This document shows, in pieces, positions 1 to 63,317 of a DNA stretch of 64,000 nt. The stretch's first letter is position 1; every line of letters begins with the position of its first letter. Below the pieces are notes generated by a model. That model was given only the letters and a program-made list of their open reading frames with translations. It was not told the DNA's origin and ran no database searches. A program made the position numbers and the translations under genes. This DNA is from Halichondria panicea (Eukaryota; Porifera; Demospongiae; Suberitida; Halichondriidae), in the NCBI RefSeq assembly GCF_963675165.1, contig NC_087377.1, positions 3,564,978-3,628,977 of the forward strand, given 5' to 3'.

Positions 1-646
1 AATGGAACCTCCAGTGAACTAGTCGAACCTCCTTCGCAAGGTAAATGGTCTGTGTACCAAGCATTATCTATTATAGTTATGTAGTACCACTCTCTTTACA
101 GCTAACGACACGATTACTGACATCTCACCATCGTCATCTCTTCCTGAGTCTATTCAACTACCCTCTATTTATACAATAGCAGGTGAGTAATAAAATATGC
201 TAAGCAGGCTTAACTGTCTAGTATATGATTGGCTGCTTATACCCTGTAATTACGTTATACAGTGTCTTCAGGTGTAACTGCTGTGGTAGTTCTACTCCTA
301 CTCTTAGTCATCGCCATTTTAACAGCTGTTGTCGTAGTGAAACAAAAACAAAGGAACCACAAAGGTAAACTGTTGACAATTTTGTTTATTATATTTACTA
401 TTTCTCTTTAATTTAGGTGATGTTGTTGTATCAGATGGAAGAGTGGATTTGTCATCAACATTGCCAGGAATTGAGCAGCCTAACGAAGCTCATGCTCCAG
501 TGCTCAATAAGAACATTGCTTATGAGCAGACACGGATACCAAGACACAATGAACACACCACCACCATTGTCACCACGGTAGTAGCAATGGATAATATTGA
601 GCCTAGTCATGAGTACGAAGAAGTATTACCTCAGGGACATTTTTAG
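1..646 (+). CDS. Ig/FN3 receptor (family 1), 3' end of a gene truncated by the window edge
   Basis: Four exons are readable: 1-40 (end of an FN3 domain), 102-182 (linker), 263-364 (membrane segment followed by basic KQKQRNHK stop-transfer residues) and 417-646 (cytoplasmic tail ending in TAG). Exon sizes 81 and 102 match the complete gene at 15179-17243 exactly, all junctions are phase 1 and GT/AG sites are intact, so this end looks functional. The 76-residue tail keeps tyrosines in NIAYEQT and SHEYEEVL, but the first tyrosine of the paralogue (NEAYAPV) is histidine here (NEAHAPV). YEEV is close to the YEEI motif favoured by Src-family SH2 domains, which suggests phosphotyrosine signalling. 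The extracellular part lies outside the window, so I cannot tell whether the whole gene is intact. Confidence 0.8.
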
Positions 647-869
647 AACGATTGAACATCACTTCACATCGATTAATGTGGCAACATAAACCACATCTCG
701 CCCTCCAACCATAGTATAACTATAACATAAAGGTCAAATTATGCTAATTTAGTACCCAATTATTCTCAATTATGCTAGTTGCTAGAAGTTATTATTATTA
801 GAACTATTACTCCTGCTAGCATAATTTGCCAAGCGAGGGCTTCAATCCATAATCACTCTGTTGTCTACG

Positions 870-1110
870 ACCTCAGTATCTCTCCTCCACCTCTGAGCTC
901 TCAATGACAAACAGTTTAGCAATATCTTTAGCTTGAGTCGTAGCTTGATTGGGTAGTCATCGTCCTTACACAACTTTTTGCGGCCATTATCATAGAACAC
1001 AGAGAACTAGATCTAGCGTTCAATTAGAGACGGATCGGCCTGGGATCGAGGCTAACAGAGAACTTGATCGGACTATCATTCTCAACGACAAAAGGAAAGA
1101 GGAATTAATG
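870..1110 (-). pseudogene. Decayed copy of the RASSF RA-domain exon
   Basis: On the minus strand this matches the RA exon of the RASSF gene at 18356-18532: the stretches around the FVIE and DDYPLKL codons, the CKD codons and the following intron are recognisable. A deletion removes the codons for the GPSED segment, and unrelated sequence interrupts the exon near 1000-1070, so it cannot encode an RA domain. It lies just downstream of a family-1 tail exon, in the same arrangement as 17243 and 18356, so it is the relic of a block duplication. Confidence 0.75.
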
Positions 1111-4059: not shown

Positions 4060-4234
4060 ATGGACCTGAGATGGCTCATTCTTTCAACAGCTCTTGTGGC
4101 ATCTATACAAGGTTGGTCTCTCATGAGTCAAACTCAGTGCATTGTGTTTTTATGTGTTTGCAGCTCAGTTCACAGTACAACCAGTGTCAGTGGGTGGTAC
4201 AGACCCAAGGGCTGAATAAAGTGTTTGAGTGTCG
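4060..4234 (+). pseudogene. Family-1 Ig/FN3 receptor, signal-peptide exon and broken first Ig exon
   Basis: Exon 1 (4060-4111) encodes a 17-residue MDLRWLILSTALVASIQ signal peptide. It has the same length and phase-1 donor as the complete gene at 15179. The Ig exon starts at 4164 after a good acceptor. It has a 4-base insertion (GTGG after TCAGTGG) that shifts the frame and stops abruptly after the FEC cysteine codon at about 4232, where the collagen-promoter block begins. The rest of the gene is gone. Confidence 0.85.
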
Positions 4235-4235
4235 G

Positions 4236-5046
4236 TTTGTTATGCCTCTATATACAAGAGTATATAATTATATCATTTATGCTGCTAGCTCAAAAAAAGT
4301 ACCTATGCAATGCAACTATAATTATGTCGATAGCTAACGTGGTGATATGAAAATGGTATTCACAGATATGTCTATCTGTTAGCTAGCTGCATGTACATGC
4401 ACTTGTTTATGTCAGTATCTAGTGGTTATAGAAAATTGCCTCGAAGTCTGACCTTATAAACCAGTTGTCGACAAGAAGTACTCGTTTTTAAAATTAGAGA
4501 TTTGCATTTGCACCTGAACCTTTAACCTTAAAGCAGTTGTCAACAAGAAGTAGTAGCATAGTGTTTTTAGATTTGCATTTACACTTGAACCTTTAACCTT
4601 ATAAATCAGTTGTCAACAAGAAGTATAACTATTGTGCACGCTTTCTAGAGATTTGCATTTACATCTGAGCAACAACTTTAAACCTAGTAGATCTATGTAG
4701 TATTAGTGGTTTTTAAATTGAACCTTTAACAGTTGTCAACAAGAAGTACGTAGTATATAGTGGTTTCTTTAGATTTGCATTTACACCTGAACCTTTAACC
4801 TTATAAACCAGTTGTCAACAAGAAGTATAACTATTGTGCACGCTTTCTAGAGATTTGCATTTACATCTGAGCAACAACTTTAAACCTAGTAGATCTATGT
4901 AGTATTAGTGGTTTTTAAATTGAACTTTTAACCTTACCCCAGTTGTCAACAAAAAGTACGTAGTATATAGTGGTTTCTAGAGATTTGCATTTACATCTGA
5001 ACAATAACTTTGAGATTTTAGTATAAAATGCATGAACCAAGGATTC
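4236..5046 (+). repeat. Collagen-promoter block, copy 2, with internal tandem repeat
   Basis: Second copy of the 2198-2846 block, longer because it has extra units: the CAGTTGTCAACAAGAAGTA core recurs at about 4463, 4530, 4605, 4728, 4810 and 4940. It fuses directly to the cut-off Ig exon on the left and carries the TATA box of the collagen gene on the right. Confidence 0.75.
5022..5028 (+). promoter_or_regulatory. TATA box of the collagen gene
   Basis: TATAAAA lies 62 bases before the ATG at 5090, a plausible distance for a core promoter with a short 5' leader. The same string in the same context is present in the orphan copy at 2816-2822. Confidence 0.55.
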
Positions 5047-5089
5047 CAAGCATTCGACCATCCAGAAAAACCCTCCAAAAGGAACAAAA

Positions 5090-6032
5090 ATGAAAGCATC
5101 AGCCAAAGCAGTATCAATCTGCATACTTTTAGAGTGCCTCACTGTGATCCGAGGTAAAGGACATGCATGCAAAGCAAAGCAATTTCTACTGGTTAAACTA
5201 ATGCTATATATTTTACTAGTAGCCAACTTCTTTAATAATTATGCATGCAATAATTTGTTGTAATTTGATCAATGCAGCTTCCCCTGTTGAAGCAGTCAAG
5301 CCCAACAACACAGAGATTACTCCCAATGTCCATTATATCCAGATACTCTGTGGTAGAGATGACCCTCAGGGTATGCCAGGAACCCCAGGAATTGATGGGA
5401 GAGATGGAGAGCCAGGGATGCTGGGGGAAAAGGGAGAGCTGGGGATACAGGGACTAAAAGGGGACAGAGGAGAACAAGGACCCGCCGGTGGAGGGGTCAC
5501 TTATATAAGGTGGGGGAAGACATCTTGTCCCTCTGTGTCAGGAACATTGCTGCTCTATCACGGAATAGCCGCTGGGAGTTGGTATGCACATGTTGGAGGT
5601 GGGGCGAACTATCTATGTATGCCGCATAACCCTCAATATGGAGCTTTTCAAGCTGGTGTGCAAGGTACAAGCCCTATCTATGGAACTGAGTACCAACCGT
5701 ATGGTGGACCACTTGGCTCACACGATCACAATGTCCCTTGTGCTGTTTGCTATGCATCTACAAGAGTGTCGCTGCTGATGCTGCCAGCTCGAGTGGAATG
5801 CCCAACATCTTGGACTCGTGAATACACGGGCTATCTGATGTCAAATTATTTTGCTAATAACCACCATCGAACCATGTATGAGTGTGTTGACCAATCTCCT
5901 GACAGAATACCAGGAAGCGCACCAAGTACAGACGGTGCAGTATTCTATCATGTAGAGGCTGCCTGCAATGGCCTACCTTGTGGACCTTATGACCCACAGA
6001 AAGAACTAACATGTGCTGTGTGTACCAAGTAG
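5090..6032 (+). CDS. Short-chain sponge collagen (spongin-type)
   Basis: Two exons, 5090-5153 and 5278-6032, join in frame (donor GAG|gtaaag, acceptor atgcag) to give 272 residues. Residues 1-21 are a signal peptide. Residues 53-91 are thirteen uninterrupted Gly-X-Y triplets, with GEKGE and GDRGE charge pairs typical of collagen. Residues 95-272 are a cysteine-rich C-terminal domain with HDHNVPCAVC, GPYDP and CAVC strings, as in sponge short-chain collagen C4 proteins (family recognition, by eye). It is expected to be secreted and to trimerise as extracellular matrix or spongin. The collagenous part is very short. The start was chosen because it gives a signal peptide and a clean phase-1 splice. 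It sits between broken receptor copies, probably as an insertion of a duplicated block. Confidence 0.9.
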
Positions 6033-6325
6033 ACTGAGCTAACAATACATAGACTACTATGTAAGAAACTGAGTTCTTTAGCAGTGCCAGTGTGATTATT
6101 GTACATATTAACTGGGTTGTAAATCTATATGCACAAAGTAAAACATATGCTGTATACATTATTAAATTTGTAGAAAATTGGCGTCATTCATAGGTCACAT
6201 GACACATGTATGAAACCTCGATGAAAATGTTTATGTCTCCTGCAGATTTGCATTCTACAACTATAGACCTCTGGTATAAATGTGTACTTTGCAAAACCAC
6301 CCCACAATTCTATGAATGCTATTAC
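6033..6325. other. Collagen 3' region, no further gene
   Basis: Contains the probable 3' UTR of the collagen gene, with an ATTAAA poly-A-like signal at about 6160. No other coding pattern was seen. Confidence 0.4.
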
Positions 6326-6345
6326 GTTTAGTTAATGATCTTTTA
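6326..6345 (+). promoter_or_regulatory. Shared upstream element, site 2 (diverged)
   Basis: GTTTAGTTAATGATCTTTTA, matching the 20-bp element except at the last two bases, with TGAATGCTATTAC just before it. It precedes the decayed Ig exon at 6379, though the signal-peptide exon is missing. Confidence 0.5.
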
Positions 6346-6378
6346 TTACTACATTTACGGGGGTTATAATGTTTGCAG

Positions 6379-6640
6379 CTCAGTTCACAGTAGAACCAGT
6401 GCCAGTGGTATAGCAAGGGCTGATTGCAGTGTTTAGGTGTGTGCATTCTGAAGCACAAAATTACAATTGGGGGCTCAATGGTACTGGCAATAGCTATACC
6501 CACCTAATGTGACTGTTATTCCACCATCTGGTGACACTACCCTAGCAAAACTGATCATCCCAGCCACAGACCTGTACAATAATACTGTGTATGGTGTAAA
6601 GTGTTGGTAGTGGTTATTATAGTAGAAGCCAAGGAGAGTT
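6379..6640 (+). pseudogene. Family-1 receptor, decayed Ig exon
   Basis: Retains an acceptor (tttgcag at 6378) and recognisable Ig blocks (AQFTVEPVPVV, NWGLNG, VTVIPPSGDT, LIIPATDLYNNTV). It has stop codons in the first strand, short deletions and no donor at the end, and the FN3 exon does not follow. It is dead, and more diverged than the copy at 4060. Confidence 0.8.
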
Positions 6641-6659
6641 CGTTAGTGAACTCATAGAT

Positions 6660-7143
6660 CATAGAGCAAAGAAGAATGTCTCTACTATCTATGGTGAACT
6701 GTACGGAAGCCCATATAGGGGCCATTTAGTTCCGTGTAAATATTCCACTCTATAGAATGCACTTCCATTCTGAAATTCCATTCTGGAATGCAATTACTGT
6801 GTGTGTATAGTATTTAAAAGCAAGTTGAGTATGATGCATGTTTTATGACCTCCCAAGTAGTTAACTGTAGCAAGGGCTACCGAAATTCAGCCGTTGTATA
6901 GCTATGCATTTTTGAGAGATTGTTAATTATACATCTAACCCCCCCTTCCCCATGCACACATAGTGTCATATCTGTAAGGAGTGTGAATGGGAGTATAGTG
7001 TCCCTATAATGCAGGACAAAGTCCCGCCTACCAGCTGATGTTCAACCAGAGTGGACGCATCGTATGTGTCATGACAAAGGTCAAATTGATATAATTTTGG
7101 TCCAGTACGTGTACAGGCCAGAACTGGCAGCCTGGAATTTAAT
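6660..7143. other. Unassigned sequence between two receptor relics
   Basis: Nothing recognisable. The FN3, linker and membrane exons expected between the Ig relic and the tail relic are replaced by this unrelated DNA. Confidence 0.4.
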
Positions 7144-7351
7144 TGTATCAGATAGAAGAGTGGATTGGTCATCAACATTGCCAGGAATTGAGCAGCCTAA
7201 CGAAGCTCATGCTCCAGTGCTCAATAAGAACATTGCCTATGAGCAGACACGGATACCAAGACACAATGAACACACCACCACCATCGTCACCACGGTAGTA
7301 GCAATGAATAACATTGAGCCAAGTCATGAATACGAAGAAGTATTGCTCTAA
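7144..7351 (+). pseudogene. Family-1 receptor, isolated cytoplasmic-tail exon
   Basis: Tail codons run without a stop from SDRRVDWSSTLPG to EYEEVLL. The 5' end of the exon and its acceptor AG are lost (the tail joins other DNA at TTTAATTG), and the 3' end stops early, so the final PQGHF residues are missing. The first tyrosine is histidine (NEAHAPV), as in the copy at 1-646. No membrane exon precedes it. Confidence 0.8.
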
Positions 7352-7600: not shown

Positions 7601-7608
7601 TGTGCCCA

Positions 7609-9030
7609 CAAATGCGCATGTAGGACCAGAAAGCCAGAAATCGGAAAAAGCGGAAGTGAAGAGTAAATGAGTGGGCGTAGCAGGGCAATGCATTCCAAGG
7701 TTAACCCTTGACTTTGCGCAGATGTAATGCATGAGATGCTGTTGCCAGATCACCCTACTAGTATCAGTGTAAGTAAGTAGAAAGCTGGCCAGCCTAGTTT
7801 TAAGAGTCAGGTAAGTAGACTCTTCATTCTCTTCATTGTCTGCAGTATAGACTCGATAATATGGCTAGCTACTTGCACATGTCTGCAGTAGACTCTAGCT
7901 AGCTACATGCACAATGACTGAATGAATTATGTCTGTACACTGAGCTAGATTTTGTATGAATTTAACATCTATCATTTTTAAGGTGTGTTAATTCAGCCAG
8001 TCACCTAACTCCTACTTATACTCCCCAATTTATTGTCCTGAGGTTATTTGGCTCTACTGAAACACGCCGAGCCACTTTTCTGACTTTCTGAGAGCCATGA
8101 TTCGAGAACGGGAACTGGAATAATTATGTTCAGTCCTGATATAATATAGACAAGCACGTATCAGCCAATAAGTTATGTTGAAATACTCAAGTTACTTTAA
8201 TCGACTGGAACTTGCTAAGAAGCTTTTCTGACTTTCCGAGAGCAGTGATTCGTTAACAGGAACCCTGAAAATAATATATTCAGTGCTGGACTAGACATGC
8301 ATGCAGATATCAGCCAGTATGTTGATAATTATATACTCTTCTGAGGTTACTTCAATCGACTGGAACTTGCTGAAAAACTTTTCTGACTTTCCGAGAGCTG
8401 TGGTTCATTAACGGGAACCCTGAAAAATAATATATTCAGTGCTGGTCTAGACATGCATGCATGCAGATATATCAGCCAGTATGTTGATATATACTCTTCT
8501 GAGGTTACTTTAATCGACTGGAAGTTGCTGAGAAACTTTTCTGACTTTCCGAGAGCAGTGCTTAGTAAACAGAAACCCAGAAAATATATTTAGTGCTGGT
8601 CTTAGACAAGCAGGTAGCAGCCAATACGTTGATACACTCTTCTGAGGTTACTTTAATCGACTGGAACTTGCTGAGCAAGAACTAGCTGAGAAACTTTTCA
8701 GACTTTCCGAGAGCAGTGCTTCGTAAACGGAAACCCAGAAAGTATATTTAGTGCTGGTTTTAGACCAGCAGGTATCAACCAATACGTTGATACACTCTTC
8801 TCGGGTTAATTTAATCGACTGGGAACTTACTGAGCAACTTTTTAGACTTTCCGAGAGCATGCAGTGATTCGTAAACAGAACTTGACCCTGAAAATGTTCA
8901 GTACTGTTCTTAGACAAGCATGTATCAACTAATACCTATAATTATATACCCAAGTTTACAATTCTGAGGTTACTTTAATTGACTAGAACTTGTTGACTTT
9001 CCAAGAGCAGTGATTCGTAAACAGAAACCC
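7609..9030 (+). repeat. Left arm of a 7.5-kb inverted repeat, with tandem array
   Basis: The arm begins with a unique part (7609-8040) and continues as about six tandem units of roughly 120-180 bp. The core is TTTAATCGACTGGAACTTGC, then TTTTCTGACTTTCCGAGAGC, then an AACGGGAACCCTGAAAA-like string. The whole arm reappears in reverse complement at 13230-15150. Confidence 0.85.
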
Positions 9031-12000: not shown

Positions 12001-13229
12001 GAGAACTATTGATATATAATTATTTTTGCACCTCATCTTCGCTAATGCCAGAACACTTCATGGAATCTCTTTTTTTTTTTTTTCGTCAATGCATGGTTGA
12101 AACACCTGTGGCTTGGTGTATTTAATTATAATTATGGTGTAAAAAAATTATTGACATAATTATTCATTTTACATACTGACAGATTAATTGTCACGGTATG
12201 GTCACGGTATGGTCACGGTACGGCCACGACAGTAGTAAGTCTTTTTTATTGGGGCGCTCCAATCTTTGGTAGAGATATAATTACGCTTGCCTTCTATAAA
12301 ATGTAAGCAACATAAATTATTGTGTCAGGAAGTGCTTTGGATGCACCAGAATCACCTGCATGGGGGGGCTTCAGCCTCACCCCCATTTTCCTATCGCCTA
12401 TATAATTATATAGGCTTTGCATTACAGCTATATAGGACATATATATCTAGAGACGATGGTGTACAATCTACAAGCTTAACTATAGCGATTATCATCTACT
12501 TGCAATATAGTTTATGTTGTAACTATATATACGCCTGTATTTATCCAGTGAGAGTTTTCCTCACTCTCTCTCATAACTGTCTTTCAATCGCAGCATCATC
12601 ACTGCCTACTTCATTGTCACTGCTCGTCCATATACCTATTGTATATAGGACTGGTGTAGACTACGTATATATACACTGCATGCCAGGACTTGACTATAAT
12701 GAGGATTGTTTGTGTATACTGCATGTGTTGCATGGATCCTGGTATAGAATTTAGTCTACACCCATGACACACACTATATTATATCAAATTATCAAGACAA
12801 TACACAGTAATACATCTATTCAAGCAAAATCTATAGTAATTAGCTGCTGACAACACACTATATATATAGATGCATGCATGGTCATGCAACAAACCAGGTA
12901 CACACCAGTCTATCAGCCCAGCAAAATGAAATTATATAGTATATAGAGTCTACGTATAGTCCGTACACTTTGATTCAATCTCTATAGTCAGAACTCAATA
13001 TAGTTTCTCATGATTGAATCTTCTGTCAAGAACTTACTCAAAAGGCTATCTTTGCACTGAGCCGTGAATAATAATCTTGCATCTAGTGAAATTGTAATCA
13101 ACATTTGAATTACTGCCCATGGAACGTCAAGAGTCGTTCTATAGTTGAGTAAAGTAACAATAACTGAAGGTATGGATGGACTGACTGCCTGCATTGCTTG
13201 TCCGATAAATGCTTTTTATCAATTACAGT
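9031..13229. other. Spacer between the inverted-repeat arms, no recognised gene
   Basis: About 4.2 kb, very AT-rich, with short open frames only and none resembling a known protein or transposase. It holds an (ATGC)n run at about 10232-10252, a triplicated GGTCACGGTA-like string at about 12190-12230, and a high density of the palindrome ATAATTAT. Confidence 0.5.
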
Positions 13230-21803: not shown

Positions 21804-22391
21804 AACTGAAGACACCTGAAATGATAGATAAACGAGTCGAAACGATTAATAATTACGTTTTGGCTATTATTACCGTAGTGTTAGAATAGCTATAATTATG
21901 TGTTTTGGGAACTTTTAGACAACAAAAACGTTATGCGATTTTTAGATAAATTTGTTTCTGGATTAGGCTGTGAGGCCTTGCGATACAAATTTATGCAATA
22001 TGGTATATACATGTAGCCGCTTGCATAAAATAAAAGTATAATCAATTTGTATCACGCATACAATTCTTGCATTACAATATAATCATACAGAGGTACTTTT
22101 GAAATGTTCATTTGGGACCTGCATGCTAACGTTCGTACAGTGTTAACAAACGCCATTGTTCTATGCAGCAATTATTATTATTATTATGACTCTTCAATGA
22201 ATTCCAGCACCAATTGGGGACTGAGAATTTTGAAACTAGTTTGACGTTTTGCTGGGTTTTACTATATAGTACCTGGAAATGCTTTGTGACCTAACTATTA
22301 AGGCAATAGTTATTACGACATTGCTGAGTCTAGCTGACTTACAATACATTTTGTTTACGTATTATGACATTATTGATTACTGCTGCTTACC

Positions 22392-25374: not shown

Positions 25375-25409
<35 letters not shown>

Positions 25410-28693: not shown

Positions 28694-29079
28694 TACTAAG
28701 CTAGCAACTCAGCTCGAATGATCGTGATCTGTAGTTACTAGGCTGATTTCATAATTGATATGTGGGCAGGGCTCTCTAATGTGCATGCTCATTGCTTAGG
28801 AAAAGTGATGACATTTTTTTTTTTTTTAGTCAAATTAACTCTTTTGGAACCTTCCTGGATCCGCCACTGATAGGTGCAGAGGTGAGGTCACCATTGTTTT
28901 CCTACTGAGCACGCTCAGACATCAAGAAATGGGGAAATTACAAGGACATAAAAATATCAGTCCTGCAGTGAAAGTCTAGTGGGCTAAAACAACAAAGTTA
29001 TACACTATTTTTTTACTAGCTTCGATCTTGTATTCAACGTCTATATATAGTTAATAATTAATTTGTTCTTCCCCTGCAG

Positions 29080-29257
29080 TTGTTGTCTGAAGCATCGATC
29101 AGGACAACCCAAGAATGGAGGAGACCTCACCAATGCTGGTCCTAGCCTTGATCTGAAGCCAGTGCCTTACGAGGGCCTCAAAGAACAAGCCGTGGGACTA
29201 GAGTCTGAGGAGAAGGAAGGGGATCTCGACTATGACAGATATAAGATTATCAAATAA
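29080..29257 (+). pseudogene. Family-2 MUC4-like gene, isolated last exon (cytoplasmic tail)
   Basis: Follows a good acceptor (cccctgcag) and encodes a tail ending EEKEGDLDYDRYKIIK, homologous to the last exon of the complete gene at 56886-57060, with AATAAA overlapping the stop codon. The frame is open. The membrane exon and all domain exons are absent upstream. It may pair with the orphan first exon at 23501 as the two ends of one collapsed gene. Confidence 0.7.
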
Positions 29258-51800: not shown

Positions 51801-54800
51801 AGTGCATTTTTGACTCCATAGAAACAGGGGACATCAATATCGGCCTTGAAACCGTGACAATGATTTCCATAATTGATGAAGATGAAAAGCTAGCATGTAC
51901 GTTAATCCACTTAATACTATTACGGTATGTATAGTCATATGAATTGTATGGCATCATACTTATAATTAAGTGATGCACATGGAAGTTTAAGAAGCTACAT
52001 GTACTATACACTAACCGTCTTGGCAACTGCACTTATATTGCTTCTATAAACTTTACCCACAGCCAACTTCCCTCCTCTCATCTACGGCCCTGTGAGCCTC
52101 TATGTTACGCTGGGGGAAGAGGCTGTACTGGTGTTCAATGTGACTGATGACAAGGGCAGTATCAACGTTACACTGGTGGACGGACTGCCAGCTGGGGCCA
52201 CTCTACTGCCTACCCCTATGGGTGACTATACAATGGAGTTCACCTTCAGATTGGAACTTGATGCAATTGCCGATATTTCTCTCGTGTTTTTGGCTACTGA
52301 TGAGCTGGACGCTGGGTCAACTCTGGAAGTGCAGGTGTGTGGCTTATAGCAATAAAGAGTGTGTTAGACCATAATTATTGAAAGTACAATTTACTAAGAA
52401 TTATATACGTTGAGTTATTGCTGCAATGAGGTTCCGTTGCATTTCCCAATAGATTGTGATCTGTGCATGTGAAAATAATGGCAACTGCACACTGGAGGGA
52501 GTGGTGGATCAGAGTGCAAGTACTGTCGTCTCCAACTGTGTATGCCCTCAAGGTATGGTATAACCTAATTGTCAATAGCGGAATTAATTCATTTTACTAG
52601 ATCTAGTGTAGTAGAAGTGACCTACATGCACACAATACATGCACTGCTTCAGGTTGGGAGGGTGACTTCTGTGAGGATGATGTTGATGGCTGTGCCAACT
52701 TTGACTGTTTCATGAGTGTGGATTGTGTGGACGTCCCTGCTCCAGGAGTGGGGGCAATGTGTGGTTCATGCCCTCCAGGGTATCTTGGAGACGGGTCAAA
52801 ATGCGCTGGTAAGTTTATCATACTGCAAGAAATGCTTTTATATTATGTAGTAGCTATATATCCAGTGTGGTAGTTAATCTGTTATTATACGTCTTATTAT
52901 AAAAGTTTTAAAGTTATTGTGACCAATTAATTGGTAATTGACAAGCTATTAATCTCTCCTCAGATATCAACGAGTGTGATGGTATCCATGGTTGTGCTCA
53001 ACTGTGCGTCAACCAACCGGGAAGCTTTGAGTGTGCCTGTTACCCTGGTTACGAGCTCGTCAGTCAAACACAATGTATAGGTCAGTGGTTGATCACTTTA
53101 ATTAGCTATTAAAAATTTTTAAAGTTGCAATTAATTCCGGGCCCATGATTGCTATGACTTTATCACGCTTGCATATTCTTTCAGACATTGATGAATGCTC
53201 TTCACTCAATGGTGGTTGTCATCAGGTCTGCAGCAATACAATTGGAGGGTTTGATTGCAGCTGCTACGAAGGTTACACCATCAACACCAACAACAGAACT
53301 TGTCAAGGTACAATCACTGCTGTCATAACCTCCTCTTAGACTACTATAGTTTAAATTCTCTTTGCAAATTTATTTCTCTTCTACATGCAGTTGACCCGGT
53401 AGCGATGTGTGATGCTAGTAACAGCTGTGCCCAATCATGTGTGAGATTATCCGGAGTGGAAACATGCGGCTGTTTCCCTGGTTACGAATTGGCGTCCAAT
53501 GGGATGAATTGCACAAGTACGTCTAGTAAAGCTTTTGTATCAACAACTCTATGCTTCGGGAACAGATGGGTACAGTAGTGTATAAATGAAGCCATTAAAT
53601 GTCCATTGTATCGACCTATTTTTGGGGAATGGTCTTTAATTCATAATTATGAGTCTTTACTTTGTCGTATAATGAATAAGACTTTAAGCTTATGAATTGT
53701 CCCCATCTCTCACAGATATCAACGAGTGTCAGGAGAATCCGTGTGAGCAGATCTGCACTGACTTGGAGGGAAGTTACGAATGCTCGTGTCGTGAGGGATA
53801 CCAGCTGTTGCCTGGAGGGAGGTGTACCGGTGAGGGGGTAGCCGTATCATTTCCAGTAATAATAAACTATTCAATCTAGTTATCCTCAGTGGCGTAGCCA
53901 CATGGGTGCAGAGGGTGCTCCAGCACCCCCCTCTGGCCTCAGACTCTGCTCCACAAGTTCCTTAGCTAAGCTAGTAGCTGATATGAGAGAACTAGAGCTC
54001 AACTCAAAACTCCACCTCCAACTAGCTAGCTCCACCTCCAAATATTCAGTGCACATGTGCAAAGGCGCCATGTGGGCTGAGCAGGTCCCCCACAGAGTTG
54101 CACTGACTGTTCAGCAGCTATCGCCATCATCATCATATCACTCTTTGAGTACTTTTCAGTTGAGCCCAGTTCACAGAGCAGCACAGCAACCTGCTAATTC
54201 ACAAGCAGAATCTGGTTAGCAGCTGTATGATTTAATTGTCACAACTCAAAACAATGCATTTTATAGGACATCTTCAGATGAAGATGTGGCTTAACCACCA
54301 GTACCCTCAAAGCAGCAGTACCCTCATTTCTTTAGCCAGATTGCGTTAGAATCAATCTCAGAGCATGTAACAAAATTTTTTTTCTGGGGCACATTTTGCA
54401 CCGCCAGTACAGGTAATTCAGACAATCAGCACCCCCCTCTCTCAAATCCTGGCTACGCCCCTGATCCTATAAGCAGGTCACCCTGTATATATATAGTATA
54501 GCCAGCCAGGTTAATAAGCCAGTGAGAGCTAGATTGTTGTGCAATAAAAAAATTGTACATTTGTATTCTGAGTATGATCGATGCTACTCAGATGTATGAA
54601 CGATGTAATTGTGGCTCAAATATCTCTCTCCATTTACAGATATCAACGAGTGTTTGGTGGCAGCTTTGGACATATTTGCGACTGACCTTTGTAAACCCTC
54701 CATGTTCTGTGTGAATGTTGAGGGTAACTACAGTTGCGAGTGTCTGGCTGGTACACTACTAGTGGAGGGAGTGTGTGAAGCTGGTAAGTACTAGCTATAG

Positions 54801-57060
54801 CTTTAATTAGCTGCATAGTGAAAACCTTGTATTATGTTGAGTTTGACCCAATTATAAGCATGTGCAATAGTGGGCGCTTCTACGATTGTAGTTACAGCAC
54901 TTAAAGTAGGAAGTGGGCCGTTATGTGGGCAGTTATGTGGGCGGTTATATGGGCGGTTGTGTGGGCGGTTATGGGCGGTTATGGGCGTTTCGACGATGAA
55001 CTACATGACTGTATACATCTACACATACACACATAAACACACATATCAGAGGATGTGCTAACCACCACTGCTGCACCACCAGTGACGACTGTGACGACTG
55101 TACCTGATGATACTGACACTATTCCGACTGACGCTATTCCTAATGCCGTTGTCGTAGAGATCAACGGATTCACTCCTTCCACGGTAACAATTACACAAAT
55201 TAATTCCTCATCCTCCAAACATGGTGCATGTCTATGCCTTGGTTTTGCACGAGCAGTGAGGTATAATTATATGGGGTAGTGTGCCTGTGTGTGTTTAATA
55301 GCTATATAAACATTTTGATAATTCCGAGTCTTATCTCTCTCCAGTTCACTCCTGAGAATCAGAGGCGCTTCAAAGAAGCCACAGCAGATGCTGTCAATGC
55401 TTACTGTGAGGACAAGGAGTGTCTGGTAGCATACCCTCAGGCAAGAGCAAGGTGAATTTTAGATTCGTAGAACAACTATATAGGTACTAAGCTAGAGGTG
55501 TTGATTATTGTTTTGGTATAAAAAGCCTTTGTGAATGAACCAAATCAACAATTTTGTTGCCCTTAATTTGCAATCTGTATAGTATTCCGTAAAGGTCTTG
55601 TGTCGTATACCATTGGTTTCTGCAATTTAAATATAGCGAAGTGACTTTTATAGTGCTGCAGTCACGTGGTATAAATCAGATATGTCACACCTACTCGGAG
55701 GATATGCACATCCTCCTCCTAGGTGTGTGGTATGTATATCCTATACATAACTACATGCATGTAACTTGGTTTTTATAGATCCATTTTACAATGTATACAC
55801 GTACCTTGTTGTTAGTGTAGTTGATAATGATGTCATATCTATGTTTAGACTTACCGCTAATTTAGTCTGGAACATTCTAGAAATTTATTGTATGTCATTG
55901 TGACCATGTGCATAAAAGTCAGTCCATGATATCTTTCTTTAAATTTTGTCAATCTGAGAACTTGCTCTATCAAGTCACATTGCAAGCTTTGCTAACACGT
56001 ATGACTGCATGTATAGCGAGTTATTTTAGTATGTCACGTATTGTATACATAGATAGAGCATCACCCGAAAATTATAACTGGTAGTTCATATGAAAATTTG
56101 GAGAATGAAATGTTCCTCTCTATACGGTTTCTTTACCTTCCTTCCTCCTCCCACACTCCACACACATGCACACACTCTTGTCTCAGGAGGAACACTCTCA
56201 CGGCTGACAATCTCTACATTGCTGACATCACTAGCACTGGAGAGTCTAGAGTCAGCTTCAGCTTGTACGCTCGTTTAGATGGTGGCACCATCAGCGGTAG
56301 TGCCTTGGCAACGGCTGTACTGGTAAGAGTCTTTGCAATTGAGTGCTACTGCATGCATAAATTGTGCAACTCCTCTATAATGATCATTATGTGGGTGCAT
56401 TTGTCATAATCTATCCCCAGGATCACCGTGACGAGTACGCAGCCCTAGGCTTTAATGTGGCTAGTGTACAGCTGCCTACAGAATCAACCACCATTCTAAC
56501 AACCAACCAGATCATTGGTATAGCGGTGGGAGGTGGTCTTGGAATCCTAATACTGGTCCTTCTTCTCATTACTATCACATGGTGAGGCTCAGGGATGTAG
56601 ATATTCTCCCCGGTATTCTATATAGATCTAGCATTGTGATGCCCACTTAATTAATTGGCTTGTGCATGCTATAAAACATTAATCAACACAAGCATGCGCA
56701 ATACAATAGTATATAGGCTTATCATAGTAGCTGCAGTGTATGCATATGGGAACCATGCATATGGGAACCATGCAATGATGGATGATCCTCCAGTACGTAG
56801 CAAAGACCAATTTCTGACTTTTTCGAAAGCAAGTTCAAAACTTTCTCTTCCACTCTCTCATTAGTATAATATTTTCCCCTTGCAGGGTTTGTGTAAAGTT
56901 TCGATCAAAGCAACCCATTATTGGAGGAGATCTCACGTATGCTAGCCCTAGTTTTGACATGAAGCCAGTACCCCACGAGGGCCTCGAAGAACAAGCCGTG
57001 GGACTAGAGTCTGAGGAGAAGGAAGGGGATCTCAACTATGAGAGATATAAGATAATTTAA
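33894..57060 (+). CDS. Complete MUC4-like transmembrane adhesion protein (family 2), 28 exons
   Basis: The 28-exon model stays in frame with GT/AG junctions and encodes 2065 residues. Exons 1-5 start at 33894, 40798, 41662, 41858 and 42303; exon 6 starts at 47065 and the last is 56886-57060. Order: signal peptide 1-22; Thr-Glu-Ala-Pro repeats to 76; an unnamed domain 77-348; four Ig-like or divergent units 349-780; nidogen-like (NIDO) domain from 781; AMOP ([13 protein letters not shown]) about 1063-1179; VWD 1180-1362 starting [11 protein letters not shown]; a MUC4/SUSD2-type segment ([10 protein letters not shown]) to 1444; six or seven EGF-like repeats (DINEC) 1536-1828; Thr-rich plus SEA-like region; membrane helix about 1984-2007; tail with LTYASP and [24 protein letters not shown] is the MUC4 order. 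The GDPH motif is the known Asp-Pro self-cleavage site of mucins and RGM proteins. Introns 1 and 5 are repeat-filled. Confidence 0.88.
33990..34119 (+). repeat. In-frame coding minisatellite (ACTGAGGCACCA units)
   Basis: About ten 12-bp units encode Thr-Glu-Ala-Pro variants ([20 protein letters not shown]). The paralogous first exons at 23501 and 57436 have only one unit. A short O-glycosylatable mucin-like stalk is the likely product. Confidence 0.85.
34865..35123 (-). mobile_element. hAT-like MITE, second copy
   Basis: Ends CAGTGGCAGATCCAG and CTGGATCCACCACTG, flanked by ACATC/ACACC (5 bp, one mismatch). The inside matches the copies at 27389 and 46353 in inverse orientation. Confidence 0.8.
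35241..35500 (+). mobile_element. Foldback MITE, GTGACAGGCTCTGGGAAAA ends
   Basis: The left end GTGACAGGCTCTGGGAAAAC is mirrored at the right end (GTTTTCCCAGAGCCTGTCA). A second member lies at 40305-40740. The interior is a few hundred AT-rich bases with no coding capacity. Confidence 0.75.
36351..38225 (+). mobile_element. Foldback element, about 1.9 kb
   Basis: The left arm (36351-36500) and the right arm (38015-38225) are reverse complements. They share GGAAGGT near the end, an AAAGTTTTATTTTTTT run, TTAAAATGTTCTTTGTG, and GGGCGCGGTCAAACGTGACG at the inner side. No transposase was seen between them. Confidence 0.75.
40305..40740 (+). mobile_element. Foldback MITE, second copy, just before exon 2
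   Basis: Same family as 35241-35500, with ends TATGTGACAGGCTCTGGG and CCCAGAGCCTGTCACATA. It stops 57 bases before the acceptor of exon 2 of the MUC4-like gene. The two arms differ by an AATT insertion (see findings). Confidence 0.75.
44016..44307 (+). mobile_element. MITE with 9-bp target duplication (Mutator-like)
   Basis: Ends TAGTTGGGCG and CGCCCAACTA open inverted repeats of about 40 bp. They are flanked by the perfect 9-bp direct repeat GTGCTTTTC (44007-44015 and 44308-44316). A 9-bp duplication is characteristic of the Mutator superfamily. Confidence 0.8.
44572..46328 (+). mobile_element. Long palindromic foldback element, 1.75 kb
   Basis: Nearly the whole element is a palindrome centred near 45450. 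For example 44905-45102 on the minus strand and 45769-45966 on the plus strand encode almost the same 65 codons. The outer ends AGAAAAACATTTGCAAT and TTGCAAATGTTTTTCT mirror each other. The mirrored ORFs resemble no known protein and probably just reflect symmetry. Confidence 0.85.
46353..46592 (+). mobile_element. hAT-like MITE, third copy (uninterrupted)
   Basis: 240 bp, with ends CAGTGGCGGATCCAG and CTGGATCCGCCACTG, flanked by the perfect 5-bp repeat AGGGT. It shows the empty site for the insertion seen at 27473-28693. Confidence 0.85.
50043..50603 (+). mobile_element. Inverted-repeat element in an intron of the MUC4-like gene
   Basis: Left AGCCTCGA..CAGGCCGATTAAAATA and right TATTTTAATCGGCCTG..TCGAGGCT mirror each other. 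Inner parts repeat a CTAGTCTGAAGCCARAAGAG block several times. A related fragment lies at about 46676-46880. Confidence 0.65.
53887..54463 (+). mobile_element. hAT-like MITE between EGF exons, 5-bp duplication
   Basis: Ends CAGTGGCGTAGCCA and TGGCTACGCCCCTG, flanked by ATCCT on both sides. The paralogous position near 30770 in the hybrid pseudogene lacks it, so it is a recent insertion in the intron between the EGF exons at 53716 and 54640. Confidence 0.8.
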
Positions 57061-57320
57061 TAAACCGTTGACAAAATAATTATTTAGTGACTATTAGATT
57101 CGCTGCTGAATTGTTTTGTTTTGAGGGTCCTGTAAATATAGTAGATTTTAGCTGCTGAACATTATTTTACTTTAATATAATGTGGTGTGAATATATACGT
57201 ACCTATAATATCATTTATGTTTGCTGCTGAGTCAAAGTGTCAAAAACATTTTGGTGAACTAAATATGCACAGAAAGGTTGCATGTGAACTCTGACAACAA
57301 TGTGACCATGATTATTACAT

Positions 57321-57340
57321 GTTTAGTTAACGATCTTTAC
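57321..57340 (+). promoter_or_regulatory. Shared upstream element, site 6
   Basis: Perfect consensus, identical to site 5 and also followed by ATACCT, 95 bases before the family-2 start codon at 57436. Confidence 0.65.
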
Positions 57341-57435
57341 ATACCTATAATAATTTGGGGGTTGGGCTTGTAGCCTGCTTGTATCAATACCCTTGCCAAG
57401 TGTAAAAATAGCTCACTCAAGACCATTCTCTTACA

Positions 57436-60400
57436 ATGAAGCTTCTTATAGCTGTGGCTCTGTTGGTTGTTGGACTCTCCCCTTGCCCAGGCTTCAGTCA
57501 GACCAGTGAGGCACCAACTGATGGTAAGTCACTTTAATATAAATACTGAAGTGCATGATAAGAGGGTTTTGTCTTTATGAGCCACTTAAATCAGTTGAAC
57601 AACAAGTCAGACTAAATAATTTGCTTGAGGCACTTAGTGCATTCTCGTTAAGTGTACATGCTATATCTGGCTACAATGACATAGTTCCTCATTTTTTTCT
57701 CTGAATTTGCGGTACTGAATTTGCGTACTTTTATGCATCAGATGACCCTTATTTCAGCAGTATTACATTTTGCATGTGGGAAATTCTATATCAATAGTCC
57801 TTTCAATATAAGAAGCTGGAATGCAGCCACGTTATTGTGACGTCATAATTAACGTGACGTCACATCAGCTAGTCGAAGAGTGCATTCCAGAGTGGAGTAT
57901 TTTACATTGAATTATGTGTGATCTTGAGCAGTGCCTATATAATTATAGCCCCCCACTGTATCCTGTTATATAATTATTTGTAAGAGCCTACACCTATAAT
58001 AGCTGAAATGTGTATATGGTGGTGTTTGGTAGGGAAAGTCTGGGGCCACCGCAATTAAGCTGATTTTATAGCCACGACGCTCATGAATATGCTTATCCAA
58101 CTCCCATGCACATTTCATTCCAGACTATATACACATATCCTTTTGCTATGCACAAGCACTTGAGGTCAGAGGAGGTAGGAAACGCATCACGTACGTGTGC
58201 CGCAGTAATTAACAATCCACGTTTAATAGCATTTAAAGGCATGCATTTAAATGCAGTTAACATCAGATGGGGCCACTTCCTGTTTAGCAGCATAATTGTG
58301 GTCAAATGCAAGGCCAGGTATAAGGATCATGTGTTGCACATAATGCGCACAATACAATCATTGTGCATGCACTATAGCTACTGCTAGCTCTATCACAAGC
58401 ATAAAAACATATTCAGTTGTCAGCTGCAAAGTCTTCCCTCCCTTCCCACCCTTATATATAGCATGGTTGAAAATGTTGTTATTTACGCTTATTTTGTATA
58501 TTTACCATACTTCTCCGCCTTCGGGCGTGATCGCTGTCGGGGCATTGCACCACTCTCTCACACTTATGGGAGCTTAAGCTTCACTCCCCCAGATTATAGT
58601 ATAGGTAATTACTAAGCATAATTATAATAAAACTATAATGAATGTGGTATGGCCAAGCAGCCTAGCAGATGACGTGGCCAAGCGGCCAAAGCAATCATCG
58701 GCATAAGGCTTTAAAAAGCTGCTGTTCAGGCATGCAGTGGTATGAATGTTGGCACAGTGAGGGAGTGGCTTAAGTTATTATAACAAATCTGTTTTTACTG
58801 TGCGCGCGCGCATGAGTGAAAGGATGGTACTAACTTATAAATCAGCGATCCAGTGGGATCCCGGCTTAATGACTCGAAATTCACATCAAACCTACTGTAC
58901 ATAGGACAATGGAGAGCAGTCTAGGGGGGATAACTCAGGTAATTAGTTGCCAGTCTTCCATAACAGTTTATTAATATCCGAAAGTGATGTGAGTTTGCTA
59001 GAGAGCACAACAGTATAGATCTACCACAGGCAAACATAGCTACAATAAAGGGGTTCAAGGTCAAGAGCCTAACATAAACATTGTATACCATTGACATGTG
59101 ACTGATGACACATGTCCCGACTTAATTAAGGTTGTGTACATGTATATGATCTGTGAAATAGGAAATTACCTAACTAACCACACCATGTATGATGTATGTA
59201 TTCATGCACTCCTGGCCACACAGTTTACACACTATATCAACAGACACTCTTGTGATGTCAGGTGACTTTTCTAGCCTCATTCGCACAGGACCTCCTTTTT
59301 CTGTTTTTTGTCAAAATACGAGACCAATTGGAGGAAAAAAGAAAGAAAGAAGGAAGAGACAAAGAACAAAGAAGAAAGAGAGCCTGCGTTGCTAAGTCGC
59401 ATGATGGTAGACAAGTGGTATACAAGTGAAAGTAAAAATGAATGTGGGCAGAACCTTGCCGGGCAAAAAGCTACAGCGGGGATGCCTACGCATCGATAGC
59501 TTCGATTCCAGGCCGCACTGAAGATGGTCCTTGTTGAGGCTTTGTGAAGGAGGCTAGCCTACACATTGCAGACTTTCAGTCACATAAAAGCTGTAGCATA
59601 TCATAGATTATACATTGTAGACGACTGTCAAGGGCTTTATAGCCTATTCTGATCGAGTTCAGAACAGACCCACTTGCCAGTGACTGAGTATAGATAGTAT
59701 AGTATACTGCTGTACAGATAATAATGTTCCTGGTATGAATACACCCCAAGTACTTGTGGGAAGAAAGTTATTGCGGTGTACTCTCTCCCACCTCGGAGTC
59801 CTTAAACATTTGTCTACGTTCATGCGACTTAGCAAAAACAGGCTCTCCTTTTTCTTTGTTTCTTCCTTCTTTGTTCCCTCAATTTCTCCCTTTGACTATA
59901 AGAAACAGAAGAAAAAAAGCCTGCGAAGGAGACTATAATTATTACGCCAGCCTAGCCTATAATAGACAATTTTAATAGAAGCAGTAAGCCTGAATAGCAT
60001 GCATGAGTATACAGTTGAAATAATTATCATTTTCCGTGCTGAAGAATTGTTTTAATAATTATAATTATGAACACTTCCTTAGAACATTATTTTTTATAGT
60101 GAAACCTTACCACCACTTCCAAAGAGCTATATAACTACTTGCATCCCTACAGTGTGGGTGTGTTGGTGTGTATGTGCGCATGGTTGAAGGTCAAGCACCT
60201 CACTTAAAATGGAATAAAGAAAACATAAGTCATTCACTACTTACAGTGACACTGTACACACTGTGTATACACAGACTATGAACTCTGTGTGCACATTCTA
60301 CACACTAGCTTGATGCATGTGGATTATAGTTCAACATATTATATTCAACTGTTACATCATGTTAGGTGAATCGCGTGCTGCCGAGTAAAAATTCCCTGAT

Positions 60401-62560
60401 TATATATCTAATATTGCTCGTACCTCCTCTGACATGAAAAGGGTGGCCACGAAAGTGACTGCTTATAGTATGACACGAATGATGGGGGCAATGTTAAAGA
60501 ATTAAATTGTATATGTAACACTACCGGTAATACACGTTTAATATACACTAGCTAACACTAGTGTTGCAATGGGAAAATGGTCCCTATATAAGTAGTATAT
60601 GCGTGCAATTAGCAATATATAGGGTATAACCAACAAGTATAGGTTATAACGAACGCTCTCTGGCTACGCCCCTCAAGTTCGAGTTGTATTAGCTGTATAC
60701 ATCCTCTTATAATTGATTATTTTATCAATTTTGATAGTGTATGGGGACCATTTGAAAACTTTGTACGATAATTATAAACAAAATAATGTAAATAATAATA
60801 GCACTGTCTGAATATTGTGTCTTTTTAGTAGGATCTGTATCAGTTAACAGAGTGGAGTTCTCCTATACCTACAGTGGTGTCGACATCAACATCTATACTT
60901 TAACAACTTGATAGAGAATCCATTTTCCGGCGATTACTACTCCTACTTTTACTACAACCCCGCCTTGTCGTCGGATGTGTCTGATGATGTACCTTGCATT
61001 TTGAACCAATTTGTTTTCAGAAATACACTCACAAATGAAATCTTCCAGGCAGAATACCTGGGTACTTGCAATTCCTACGATATCAACCATATTCGGATTA
61101 AGAGATTAAGATGAATCCTAGAGATTTTCTCAGGCTAGTTGGGAACGATTTTATTGATACCAACTCTACTACGCCCTTGGGCTTGGAAATGTACACTGCA
61201 GATATACTTGGAGCTCCGTTTAACCTTCGAATAGAACCAGATAACGCCATTGAGTTTGACTTGAAATTGGACTTGAGGTTCAATGTTAGGATTAGAGAAC
61301 TTGACTATTGGACTGATGAGGGGATTCTTCTGATTCATTTCAATACTTTAATTGACATTGCGACTGTCAATGCCAGCAAGCTTTCACTCACACTCTCTCC
61401 CTATTACAGTGAGGATGTAAGCAATACTGTTAGCATTACTGGTGGTGAAATACTGAACCAGTCGCCAGGCTTAACATCATCTGTGGCTATCAAACTGACT
61501 TCTAGTGATCAAGATCTTGTTGTCAGCAGAGGAATATGGGCTAATGGCAGTTCAATTTACAACAGTTTTGTTGTCTTAGAATCAGGATTTGCTGTTGCGT
61601 ATTTTGGAGCAGAGGTTTCTCTCACCACTCCCTATTTAGTCACTAATATCCGGAGAGCCCCCACAGGTGACCCATAATAATTATTGGTTTTAATAGATCT
61701 ATATGTACCACACGTATATACTTTGATGATAACACAAGTTGGCTATAGATCAATAATTATATACTCTACTATGCCCTTTACACTGTTGAATTGACATTGA
61801 AATCTTATCACTGTTAAGTCAATCAGACATGCACATGATGCATCACATAATTATTAGTATAAGAGTATACACTACTACAGCAATAGAATATAGAATAGGG
61901 TATATTATATCAAATGCTATAATTAATATATTATTTCTCTCCAGATTCTGACCCCTTGTCTGTGTCTATTCAGCTGGAGTACGTCGATGGATTGACTTTG
62001 GACCTGGCACTCAGTCTAGGTCAGTCGTTCAGAGTTCGATTAGATTTCGGAGAGAGGATTGTCAGGTAAGGCACAAAAAATAGTTAGAGGGAATTTAATG
62101 TTCCTATATATGCGTGCTTACACAACGCCCCCTCTTCCTCTACAGTGTGACGTGTGCAAGTAGGGACACTAACGAACATGTGAACCCCATGCTGGAGATT
62201 GACAATGGTGCAGTGTCTATTCCACCTAACTACATCCAGAATGATCGGCCCAGCTCCACCACTTTGAATGCATCCCGGGGGCTAGCTGAGTCTGGTTTGC
62301 AAGGCTACTACACATGCAGGACAGAGGGAGACACTTTCCTCAGTCCTCACCTTCTACATTCCAGTGAGTGCAACACGGACAGAGTTGTATCATTATTATT
62401 CATTCTAGCAGTTTGTACTCTGGGGGGCTTTGTCCACAGATTAATATAATTATGTACTTTTGAAGATGGTTTTTTCCTGCTTGAATATTATTTTCTCTCC
62501 ATTTTAGATGGCTATCACATCTATTTCTACAAAGGATTGTCTGCTACAGTTGATGTAGTA
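57436..62560 (+). pseudogene. Second MUC4-like gene (family 2), 5' half, disrupted
   Basis: Exon 1 (57436-57523) encodes an intact signal peptide with one TEAP-type unit. Exon 2 (60832-61666), the 270-residue unnamed domain, has a 2-base shift near 60890 and a second disruption near 61090; the remainder is open from 61111. Exons 3 (61945-62065), 4 (62146-62363) and the start of 5 (62508) keep the sizes and phases of the complete gene. Exon 5 then switches at about 62560 to a family-1 Ig sequence out of frame. The copy is clearly broken unless frameshifts are assembly errors. The 3.3-kb first intron shows a T-rich/A-rich inverted pair at about 59290-59930. Confidence 0.8.
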
Positions 62561-63317
62561 GTCGCAATTGGGGATTCAATGAAGAGGTTCCTACAGATGA
62601 TAGCTACCCACCCAATGTGACTGTTACTCTACCATCTGGTAATACCCCAGCAACTCTGACCATCCCAGCCACAGCACAGTACAACAACACTGTGGTGCAG
62701 TGTGAGGCAGTGGTTAGAGACGGAGGAGGGTTCATACCTGAATTATTAGTAAATGCTACCTTGCAAGTACAAGGTAGTCACAAATATTAAATAGCTTGTT
62801 TTTGTACCCTGTTCCTCTCAGGTCCTCTTTCAGCTGTCTCCAACCTCCATGCTCAGTCATCAAGCACCAACATCACAATCACCTGGGAATCAGGCCTGTG
62901 CCAAATATTCCGGAATAATTTTTTAAATAATAGGCAGTCTTTTTTACAATTTGAATAATAGGCACTGCGAAAACAGTTTAATGATATTCATTGAGTTGCA
63001 CATGCGATTCCCAGGCTGGGATGCTCAAAACAAAGGTAAACTGTTGACAACTTTGTTTATTGTATTATTTACTCTTTAATTTAGATGTTGTTGTATCAGA
63101 TGGAAGAGTGGATTTGTCATCAACATTGCCAGGAATTGAGCGGCCTAACGAAGCTTATGCTACAGTGCTCAATAAAAACATTGCTTATGAGCAGATACGG
63201 ATGCCAAGACACAGTGAACATACCACTACCATCGTCACCACGGCAATAGCAATGGAGGATGAGAACATTGAGCCAAGTCATGAATACGAAGAAGTGTTGC
63301 CTCAGGGACATTTTTAG
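62561..63317 (+). pseudogene. Family-1 receptor relic fused behind the MUC4-like relic
   Basis: From 62561 the second half of an Ig domain (NWGFNEEV, VTVTLPSGNTP, NNTVVQCEAV) with its phase-1 donor is readable. The first 60 or so bases of an FN3 exon follow (62821 onward), cut at about 62890. Linker and membrane exons are deleted. The tail exon (about 63086-63317) is open and ends EYEEVLPQGHF, but its acceptor region reads TTTAGATG, with the GTG bases lost. Tail tyrosines: NEAYATV, NIAYEQI, SHEYEEVL. Confidence 0.85.

Follow-up and report, generated by a model that had tools for sequence, protein, structure and literature searches.

The DNA analyzed here (the window) is a 64,000-nucleotide stretch of the sponge Halichondria panicea, located at positions 3,564,978 to 3,628,977 of contig NC_087377.1. 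This contig, labeled C1 in the following, is 18 Mb long and is one of 39 contigs in the 131.5-Mb (131.46 Mb) assembly. The window (C1:3564978-3628977) is the middle part of a multigene complex formed by two interleaved families of type-I membrane proteins, all on the plus strand. Family 1 is a small receptor composed of a signal peptide, an immunoglobulin (Ig) domain, an FN3 domain, a second Ig and a second FN3 domain, a transmembrane (TM) segment, and a tyrosine-containing tail. Family 2 is a large MUC4-like membrane protein, composed of a variable N-terminal domain, tentative Ig-like exons, NIDO, VWD, a MUC4-type C8-3 domain, EGF domains, a TM segment, and a tail.

A first-pass annotation of the window had proposed two interleaved families of surface proteins with one complete copy each, and both statements hold (family 1 gene, 15179-17243; complete-looking family 2 gene, approximately 40.75-57.06 kb). 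Its count of four family 2 units is also reproduced. Only four family 1 units are counted here, instead of at least six; a lone 13-amino-acid signal-peptide-like match at 30282 was left out of the count. The remaining copies had been described as truncated or hybrid. This applies to the family 1 relic, the family 2 fragments, and the hybrid, but not to the unit at 1-643, which is the 3' end of a complete gene (C1:3563560-3565620) that starts 1.4 kb upstream and is cut by the window edge. The features are listed in Table 1.

Table 1. Family 1 and family 2 features of the window (positions are those of the window).
Feature	Position	Strand	Remarks
Family 1, 3' end of gene	1-643	+	End of FN3b, stalk, TM, tail
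Family 1 relic	4060-7345	+	Signal-peptide-like exon 4060-4110; Ig pieces 6381-6604 (one with stop); tail exon 7136-7345
Family 1 complete gene, exon 1, signal peptide	15179-15230	+	
Exon 2, Ig1	15298-15591	+	Lowest mean identity among family 1 exons
Exon 3, FN3a	15640-15915	+	
Exon 4, Ig2	15972-16277	+	
Exon 5, FN3b	16329-16631	+	
Exon 6, stalk	16693-16773	+	
Exon 7, TM segment	16850-16951	+	
Exon 8, cytoplasmic tail	17008-17243	+	YAPV (Y or H among copies), YEQT, YEEV
Lone family 2 tail exon	29051-29254	+	Open over exon
Family 2 3' part, EGF to tail	30317-33959	+	77-95% like 53426-57501; tail frame interrupted
Complete-looking family 2 gene, N1 and N2	40748-41782	+	N1 approximately 280 amino acids, no recognized relative
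Four Ig-like exons	41858-47790	+	Iga, Igb (without cysteines), Igc, Igd; Ig assignment tentative
NIDO, AMOP-like exon, VWD, MUC4-type C8-3	48025-51896	+	
One exon without assigned domain, EGF-like and juxtamembrane exons	52063-56322	+	Approximately seven EGF-like exons, three juxtamembrane exons
TM and cytoplasmic tail	56421-57060	+	
Hybrid relic, 5' part (family 2)	60829-62368	+	N1 (frame split near 61.1 kb), N2, Iga
Hybrid relic, 3' part (family 1)	62569-63314	+	Ig1 residues 31-97, 23 amino acids of FN3a, tail; no TM match

Both families are tandemly duplicated in a single orientation across the part of C1 that was analyzed. All genome-wide match counts for their exons are lower bounds. The family 1 tail has at least 73 matches (16 with in-frame stops), distributed as 21 in C1:3.44-3.70 Mb, 49 in C1:6.9-7.75 Mb, 2 on contig C2, and 1 elsewhere on C1. 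Ig1 has at least 102, and those listed are all on C1, C2, and C8. For family 2, N1 has at least 24 matches, 23 of them on C1 (1.09-1.16, 3.23-3.78, and 4.56-4.60 Mb) and a weak one on C6. The NIDO exon has at least 40, of which 19 rows (18 loci) reach 78% identity or more, all on C1, and the tail exon has at least 22 (17 in C1:3.36-3.69 Mb and 5 at 1.10-1.14 Mb). Among the matches listed, the two families overlap only at approximately 3.42-3.70 Mb. Nine family 1 genes in C1:3.438-3.695 Mb have all seven core exons open, and the remaining units are partial or damaged. The copies keep the exon order and mostly share 70-100% protein identity per exon with the window gene, which is above chance. 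Their signal peptides are 59-100% identical to that of the window gene, and damaged pieces of any exon have lower identity.

The complete family 1 gene is split into eight exons with AG/GT borders, all introns are in phase 1, and its model is 549 amino acids in length. Exons 1 and 7 are hydrophobic as judged by eye and were assigned as the signal peptide and the single TM segment. The joined protein matches Pfam fn3 with 26.0 bits (cut-off 25), and a Pfam scan of the model found no kinase domain. Ig1 contains an Ig pattern (F2, C21, W31, L59, and C74) that is invariant in 30 aligned exons. Over the 30 related Ig1 exons, Pfam identifies Ig_3 in 18 (best E-value 5.2e-5) and I-set in 6; the window's own Ig1 has no Pfam Ig match at E-values up to 0.1. 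An Ig1 profile searched against PDB matches titin (2.8e-7), Robo2, and DSCAM. The AlphaFold model of Ig1, built from 3 window sequences, is poor, with a predicted local distance difference test (pLDDT) score of 55.7. The 50 listed rows of a Foldseek search with this model are almost all antibody chains, the best of which is not significant (E-value 0.27). Dscam-like splicing among tandem Ig exons is not favored, as a separate signal peptide, TM segment, and tail are present in each of nine units.

For the tail, 24 of the 73 matches, drawn from both C1 clusters, were aligned. Two of the three tyrosines are invariant in all 24. They lie in the motifs YEQT (YEQI in one copy, the hybrid relic of the window) and YEEV, YEEI, or YEDV (YEKV in one copy). 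The third, in YAPV of the window gene, is Y or H across the window's cluster. Neither a canonical immunoreceptor tyrosine-based inhibitory motif (ITIM) nor an activation motif (ITAM) was seen in the 24 aligned tails, judged by eye against the motif rule. The YAPV and YEEV/I cores have E or H at position -2, and YEQT mostly lacks I, V, or L at position +3. YEEV/YEEI resembles a Src-family SH2 site. In the cluster at C1:6.9-7.75 Mb, the tails of two sampled genes continue to YVNVN after YEDV, a possible additional SH2 site.

The complete-looking family 2 gene is modeled with 26 exons and 2,105 amino acids; its 5' (first) exon was not found. Comparison of the window with three further copies gave conserved DNA blocks across 40.8-57.1 kb. 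Exons were taken from open reading frames (ORFs) conserved in the other copies and were joined by a script that requires matching phases and the absence of stops. The model is thus stop-free partly by construction, and some exon borders are uncertain. Pfam identifies, in this order, NIDO (E-value 2.8e-19), VWD (3.9e-6), C8-3_MUC4 (2e-8), and EGF, followed by the TM segment. An exon sits at the expected place of AMOP, yet has no Pfam AMOP match. As to a long serine/threonine-rich mucin repeat, a short threonine-rich stretch near the TM segment was all that was noted by eye in this model, which lacks its 5' end. The first-pass label of MUC4-like therefore fits the middle part of the protein (NIDO, VWD, and C8-3), while the N-terminal part is something else. 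N1 has no match in PDB up to an E-value of 5, and its structure model is useless (pLDDT 31). A Pfam match of N1 to Lipid_bd (E-value 0.012), seen in one of seven members, is taken as chance. Igc reaches Pfam Ig_3 at an E-value of 0.084 in two of seven members, and domain searches with Igb gave nothing credible; the Ig status of the family 2 Ig-like exons is tentative.

Two repeats are associated with family 2 in the window. The Igb-Igc intron of the complete gene contains an inverted repeat (44842-46029) with 506-nucleotide arms that are 91% complementary, which looks like a foldback element. Just past the family 2 fragment, at 33984-34120, is a 12-base tandem repeat with 11.4 copies of ACTGAGGCACCA, one frame of which would give Thr-Glu-Ala-Pro.

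Divergence was measured among paralogs of the one assembly, as protein identity and as the ratio of nonsynonymous to synonymous divergence (dN/dS, Nei-Gojobori). Exon copies with less than 85% coverage or with a stop were excluded from dN/dS. Family 1 has 16 unit slots, of which 9-15 copies were used per exon, and family 2 has 8 copies, of which 6-8 were used. The family 2 exon VWD1 was left out, as only one copy passed; the stops in its other copies may be due to an intron in the exon model.

Mean protein identity (with dN/dS) in family 1 is 79.1% (0.78) for the signal peptide, 77.5% (0.71) for Ig1, 89.8% (0.40) for FN3a, 84.5% (0.59) for Ig2, 90.1% (0.56) for FN3b, 94.1% (0.56) for the stalk, 94.1% (0.35) for the TM segment, and 90.9% (0.40) for the tail. 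In family 2, the values are 67.6% (0.54) for N1, 71.5% (0.53) for N2, 84% (0.29) for Iga, 69.3% (0.75) for Igb, 85.5% (0.26) for Igc, and 84.7% (0.42) for Igd. Further along the protein, they are 89-95.7% (0.10-0.37) for the NIDO exons, 91.4% (0.46) for the AMOP-like exon, 98.5% for VWD2, 96.1% for VWD3, and 92.7-96.8% for the EGFs (0.11-0.57 over VWD2 to EGF7), 90-92% (0.46-0.51) for the juxtamembrane exons, 94.9% (0.21) for the TM segment, and 89.7% (0.35) for the tail. Divergence is thus highest at the membrane-distal side of both families, and the proximal exons and tails are better conserved.

This pattern holds pair by pair. For 12 family 1 genes (66 pairs), Ig1 has a higher dN than the C-terminal part in every pair and a higher dS in 56. 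In family 2, dS is higher in the distal than in the proximal part for 20 of 21 pairs (seven copies, with P3693 excluded). The inner parts thus look young or homogenized and the outer parts old. The divergence of Ig1 recurs in a group of genes at 6.3-7.9 Mb (Ig1 77.6%, FN3a 88.1%, n=4), and the contrast is slight in the tailed 7-Mb group (Ig1 76.5%, FN3a 79.5%, n=3). Bootstrap ranges for the ratio of nonsynonymous to synonymous proportions (pN/pS) are 0.52-1.0 for Ig1, 0.26-2.57 for the 17-codon signal peptide, and up to 1.08 for Igb; in several short exons they are too wide to inform. Post hoc windows with pN/pS above 1 occur in Ig1, Ig2, N1, and Igb. A test for clustering of replacement changes was applied to eight exons, with p-values uncorrected. 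N1 is nominally clustered (0.0125). FN3a gives 0.0035, but synonymous change is elevated there as well. The values for Ig2, tail, Igb, Igc, and Igd are 0.40, 0.28, 0.07, 0.09, and 0.13, respectively.

Besides duplication and decay, the families show exchange of exons. In family 1, the distances between Ig1 copies do not correlate with the corresponding distances for four other exons (r -0.11 to 0.05), while some exon pairs do correlate (FN3a/Ig2 0.44, FN3b/tail 0.40). Four genes at 6.3-7.9 Mb, with no family 1 tail listed nearby, carry Ig1 exons that differ from those of the window cluster by a mean dS of 0.41, whereas the next FN3 exon gives 1.68, near saturation (48 comparisons each). Ig1 has therefore moved relative to its neighboring exons; either Ig1 would have been transferred by conversion or shuffling, or the following exon replaced. 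No such sharing was seen for the tailed 7-Mb cluster, where Ig1 dS (1.61) and next-exon dS (2.00) are both near saturation. Two family 2 genes have a 10.7-kb 5' part in common at 98.5% identity, dropping to 86% at the 3' end, and this pair is the sole exception among the 21 dS comparisons. The identity of its shared part is within a possible allelic range, as would be expected if part of the copy number consisted of alleles of a very polymorphic locus placed end to end by the assembly. Among the pieces compared, high-identity blocks (94-98.5%) form a patchwork at many different offsets, with no collinear double of the region. Apart from this pair, the paired copies described next differ by 22-38% in N1 protein. 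Such an artefact is considered highly improbable, and collapsed haplotypes as the whole explanation are not supported by the block offsets.

Some members of the two families are direct neighbors. In C1:3.36-3.69 Mb, 7 of the 17 family 2 tail-exon matches have an Ig1 match less than 1 kb downstream. Spacing was measured on the DNA up to the next gene for these seven pairs and the window gene, and in the seven pairs the family 1 signal-peptide exon begins 405-451 bp past the family 2 stop codon. For the seven pairs, a single fused gene is rejected, since a separate signal-peptide exon is retained in family 1 and a separate stop in family 2. The family 2 copy looks damaged in two of these pairs; one such copy lacks matches for Igd to EGF7, and in the other, Igb is short and the NIDO exon is split and contains a stop.

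Taken together, these comparisons indicate that the locus is very probably a diversified cell-surface recognition complex. Its anatomy is that of receptors with an outer end for contact with something variable and a fixed inner end for signaling. Allorecognition, that is, discrimination of self from non-self between individuals, is the favored reading and is given a probability of 0.45 as the main use. The first-pass annotation had raised this reading, which gains from the wider genome; a large cluster, variation on the membrane-distal side, and conservation of the tyrosine tail would all be expected under it, and all three were found. On touching cells, partners would be bound by the distal domains, namely Ig1 of family 1 and N1 and the Ig-like exons of family 2, and this binding would cluster the receptors. 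The invariant tail tyrosines, once phosphorylated, would recruit SH2 proteins, and the animal's own set of variants would define self. The role of family 2 may be that of an adhesion partner or co-receptor, long and membrane-mucin-like.

Several results weigh against allorecognition. No exon of either family has an overall dN/dS above 1 between paralogs, and positive selection is therefore not demonstrated. In Ig1, dN exceeds dS in just 11 of the 66 pairs, and replacement changes are not significantly clustered (p 0.33, uncorrected, among the eight exons). Distal dS is elevated together with dN. The I-set-like character of Ig1 (titin, Robo2, and DSCAM) is that of a common adhesion fold. Among the matches listed, the family 1 cluster at 6.9-7.75 Mb has no family 2 matches. 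The seven pairs were chosen from the positions of tail-exon and Ig1 matches; the other 10 of the 17 tail-exon matches in C1:3.36-3.69 Mb have no Ig1 match within 1 kb downstream, and neither do any of the 5 at 1.10-1.14 Mb. The ten comprise the window gene, two window fragments, and seven copies ahead of the first family 1 gene. The complete family 2 gene of the window is thus unpaired, with the nearest following family 1 start 28 kb away. Over the seven pairs, N1 distances are uncorrelated with the Ig1 distances of the neighbor (r -0.16, p 0.73), which speaks against matched receptor-ligand variants, although the power of seven pairs is low and any exchange would obscure the signal. Matched variants in neighbors are not supported; 41 exon combinations include one nominal p-value below 0.05 (N1 and tail, 0.026), which is uncorrected and was not used.

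Alternatively, these could be ordinary adhesion or signaling families evolving by birth and death, with less constraint on the distal exons and homogenization of the proximal exons by gene conversion. An overall dN/dS below 1 in every exon, the many partial units, and the patchwork of 94-98.5% blocks at many offsets are consistent with this, and uneven conversion alone could raise distal dS along with dN. The recurrence of Ig1 divergence at 6.3-7.9 Mb (slight in the tailed 7-Mb group) and the invariance of two tail tyrosines across both clusters argue in the other direction, and this explanation is considered improbable. The main rival reading, an array for recognition of microbes or symbionts in which Ig1 and N1 diversify against the bacteria met by a filter feeder and the tails drive phagocytosis or defense, predicts the same copy number, distal variability, and exon sharing. 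One paper places Ig-domain genes among the responders to microbial molecules in two sponges, and cites more Ig-like and FN3 genes for low-microbial-abundance sponges (PMC6208332), which gives this reading some support. The adjoining membrane-mucin-like genes and the I-set Ig domains fit cell-cell contact at least equally well, and microbe recognition is regarded as possible but somewhat unlikely.

In organization, the systems that appear nearest are Hydractinia Alr and the Botryllus fester/FcoR (FF/FcoR) genes. The Hydractinia allorecognition complex (ARC) is described as clusters of Ig-superfamily genes whose products are single-pass proteins with polymorphic extracellular domains, and many presumed pseudogenes lie among them (PMC11067881). 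Tyrosine signaling motifs are attributed to Alr in a second source (PMC12065747). The H. panicea locus resembles Alr1, Alr2, and the Alr-like genes in its clustered Ig-type transmembrane paralogs, which include damaged copies, and in its tyrosine tails. It differs in that FN3 alternates with Ig, the tails carry YEQT and YEEV/I rather than a canonical ITIM or ITAM, and a MUC4-like family is interleaved; the likeness is one of organization. The second source also describes neighboring fester and FcoR pairs in Botryllus fuhc, with a Y-x-x-I/L/V core in the FcoR tails (PMC12065747). Neighboring pairs of two multicopy surface families are also present here, and YAPV and YEEV/YEEI follow that core. 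Again, the likeness is organizational. The partner here is a NIDO/VWD/EGF membrane protein rather than a sushi-domain fester, the receptor has Ig and FN3 instead of Ig and sushi, and only 7 of 17 family 2 tail exons in the region are paired. Compared with MUC4-type NIDO-AMOP-VWD-EGF proteins, family 2 shares NIDO, C8-3_MUC4, VWD, EGF, and TM. It has approximately 750 extra N-terminal amino acids (N1 and the Ig-like exons), which are the variable part, and its AMOP-like exon lacks a Pfam match.

Sponge aggregation factors are Calx-beta proteins. No Calx-beta domain was found by Pfam in the family 1 or family 2 models. A genome search gave 645 Calx-beta candidates, of which 150 were scored; a repertoire of this kind is typical of sponges. 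Among the matches listed, none lies in C1:3.2-3.8 Mb, the arrays lie on C2, C5, C15, and C1:15.3-16.4 Mb, and no link between them and the receptor complex was seen. A candidate aggregation-factor-like gene at C2:269229-278225 has twelve strong Calx-beta matches, eleven of them at a spacing of approximately 406 bp. Calx-beta exons also occur at C1:7762976-7948613, alongside the Ig1-bearing genes for which no family 1 tail is listed. On C6 (C6:2382998-2397106, minus strand), a Calx-beta match and the sole N1 match off C1 (E-value 9.1e-4) each lie in an open frame of 10,065 amino acids, probably one and the same.

According to one paper, sponges discriminate between own and foreign tissue in grafts, and a polymorphic genetic system is inferred to underlie this; a main aggregation-factor protein is cited there as highly polymorphic in a sponge, and the graft transcriptomes of that study showed no enrichment of aggregation factors (PMC5450542). 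Published sources also describe an Ig-domain receptor tyrosine kinase and an adhesion molecule in Geodia cydonium (PMC12018476, PMC11999971). These are likewise sponge surface proteins with Ig-like domains, whereas the family 1 model has no kinase domain. In the open-licence literature, no paper was found that names an Ig-receptor gene cluster for sponge self/non-self recognition.

Three further features are present between or beside the units of the window. An ORF at 5223-6032 (plus strand), between family 1 units, has a short collagen stretch (Pfam Collagen 1.1e-5, below the cut-off) and a cysteine-containing C-terminus, and is in keeping with a sponge genome. A second ORF at 22387-23211 (minus strand) encodes 274 amino acids and has no Pfam match. 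Upstream of the complete family 1 gene, 7612-9335 and 12509-15150 form an inverted duplication (72-80%) with tandem arrays of approximately 160-bp units.

A broader, doubtful reading would join these elements in a recognition supergene of repeated two-gene cassettes in a non-bilaterian animal. The first gene of each cassette would encode a membrane-mucin-like protein whose variable N-terminal domain is undescribed, and 0.4 kb downstream of it would lie the gene of an Ig/FN3 receptor that carries SH2-type tyrosines. Variable exons would pass between loci and individuals would differ in cassette content, which would make this an independent animal allorecognition system with paired families as in Botryllus. 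The complex offers bounded candidates, namely the exons Ig1, N1, and Igb for population typing and the interval for segregation analysis. Should the locus serve allorecognition, signaling through receptor tails with clustered, shared Ig exons would extend to sponges.

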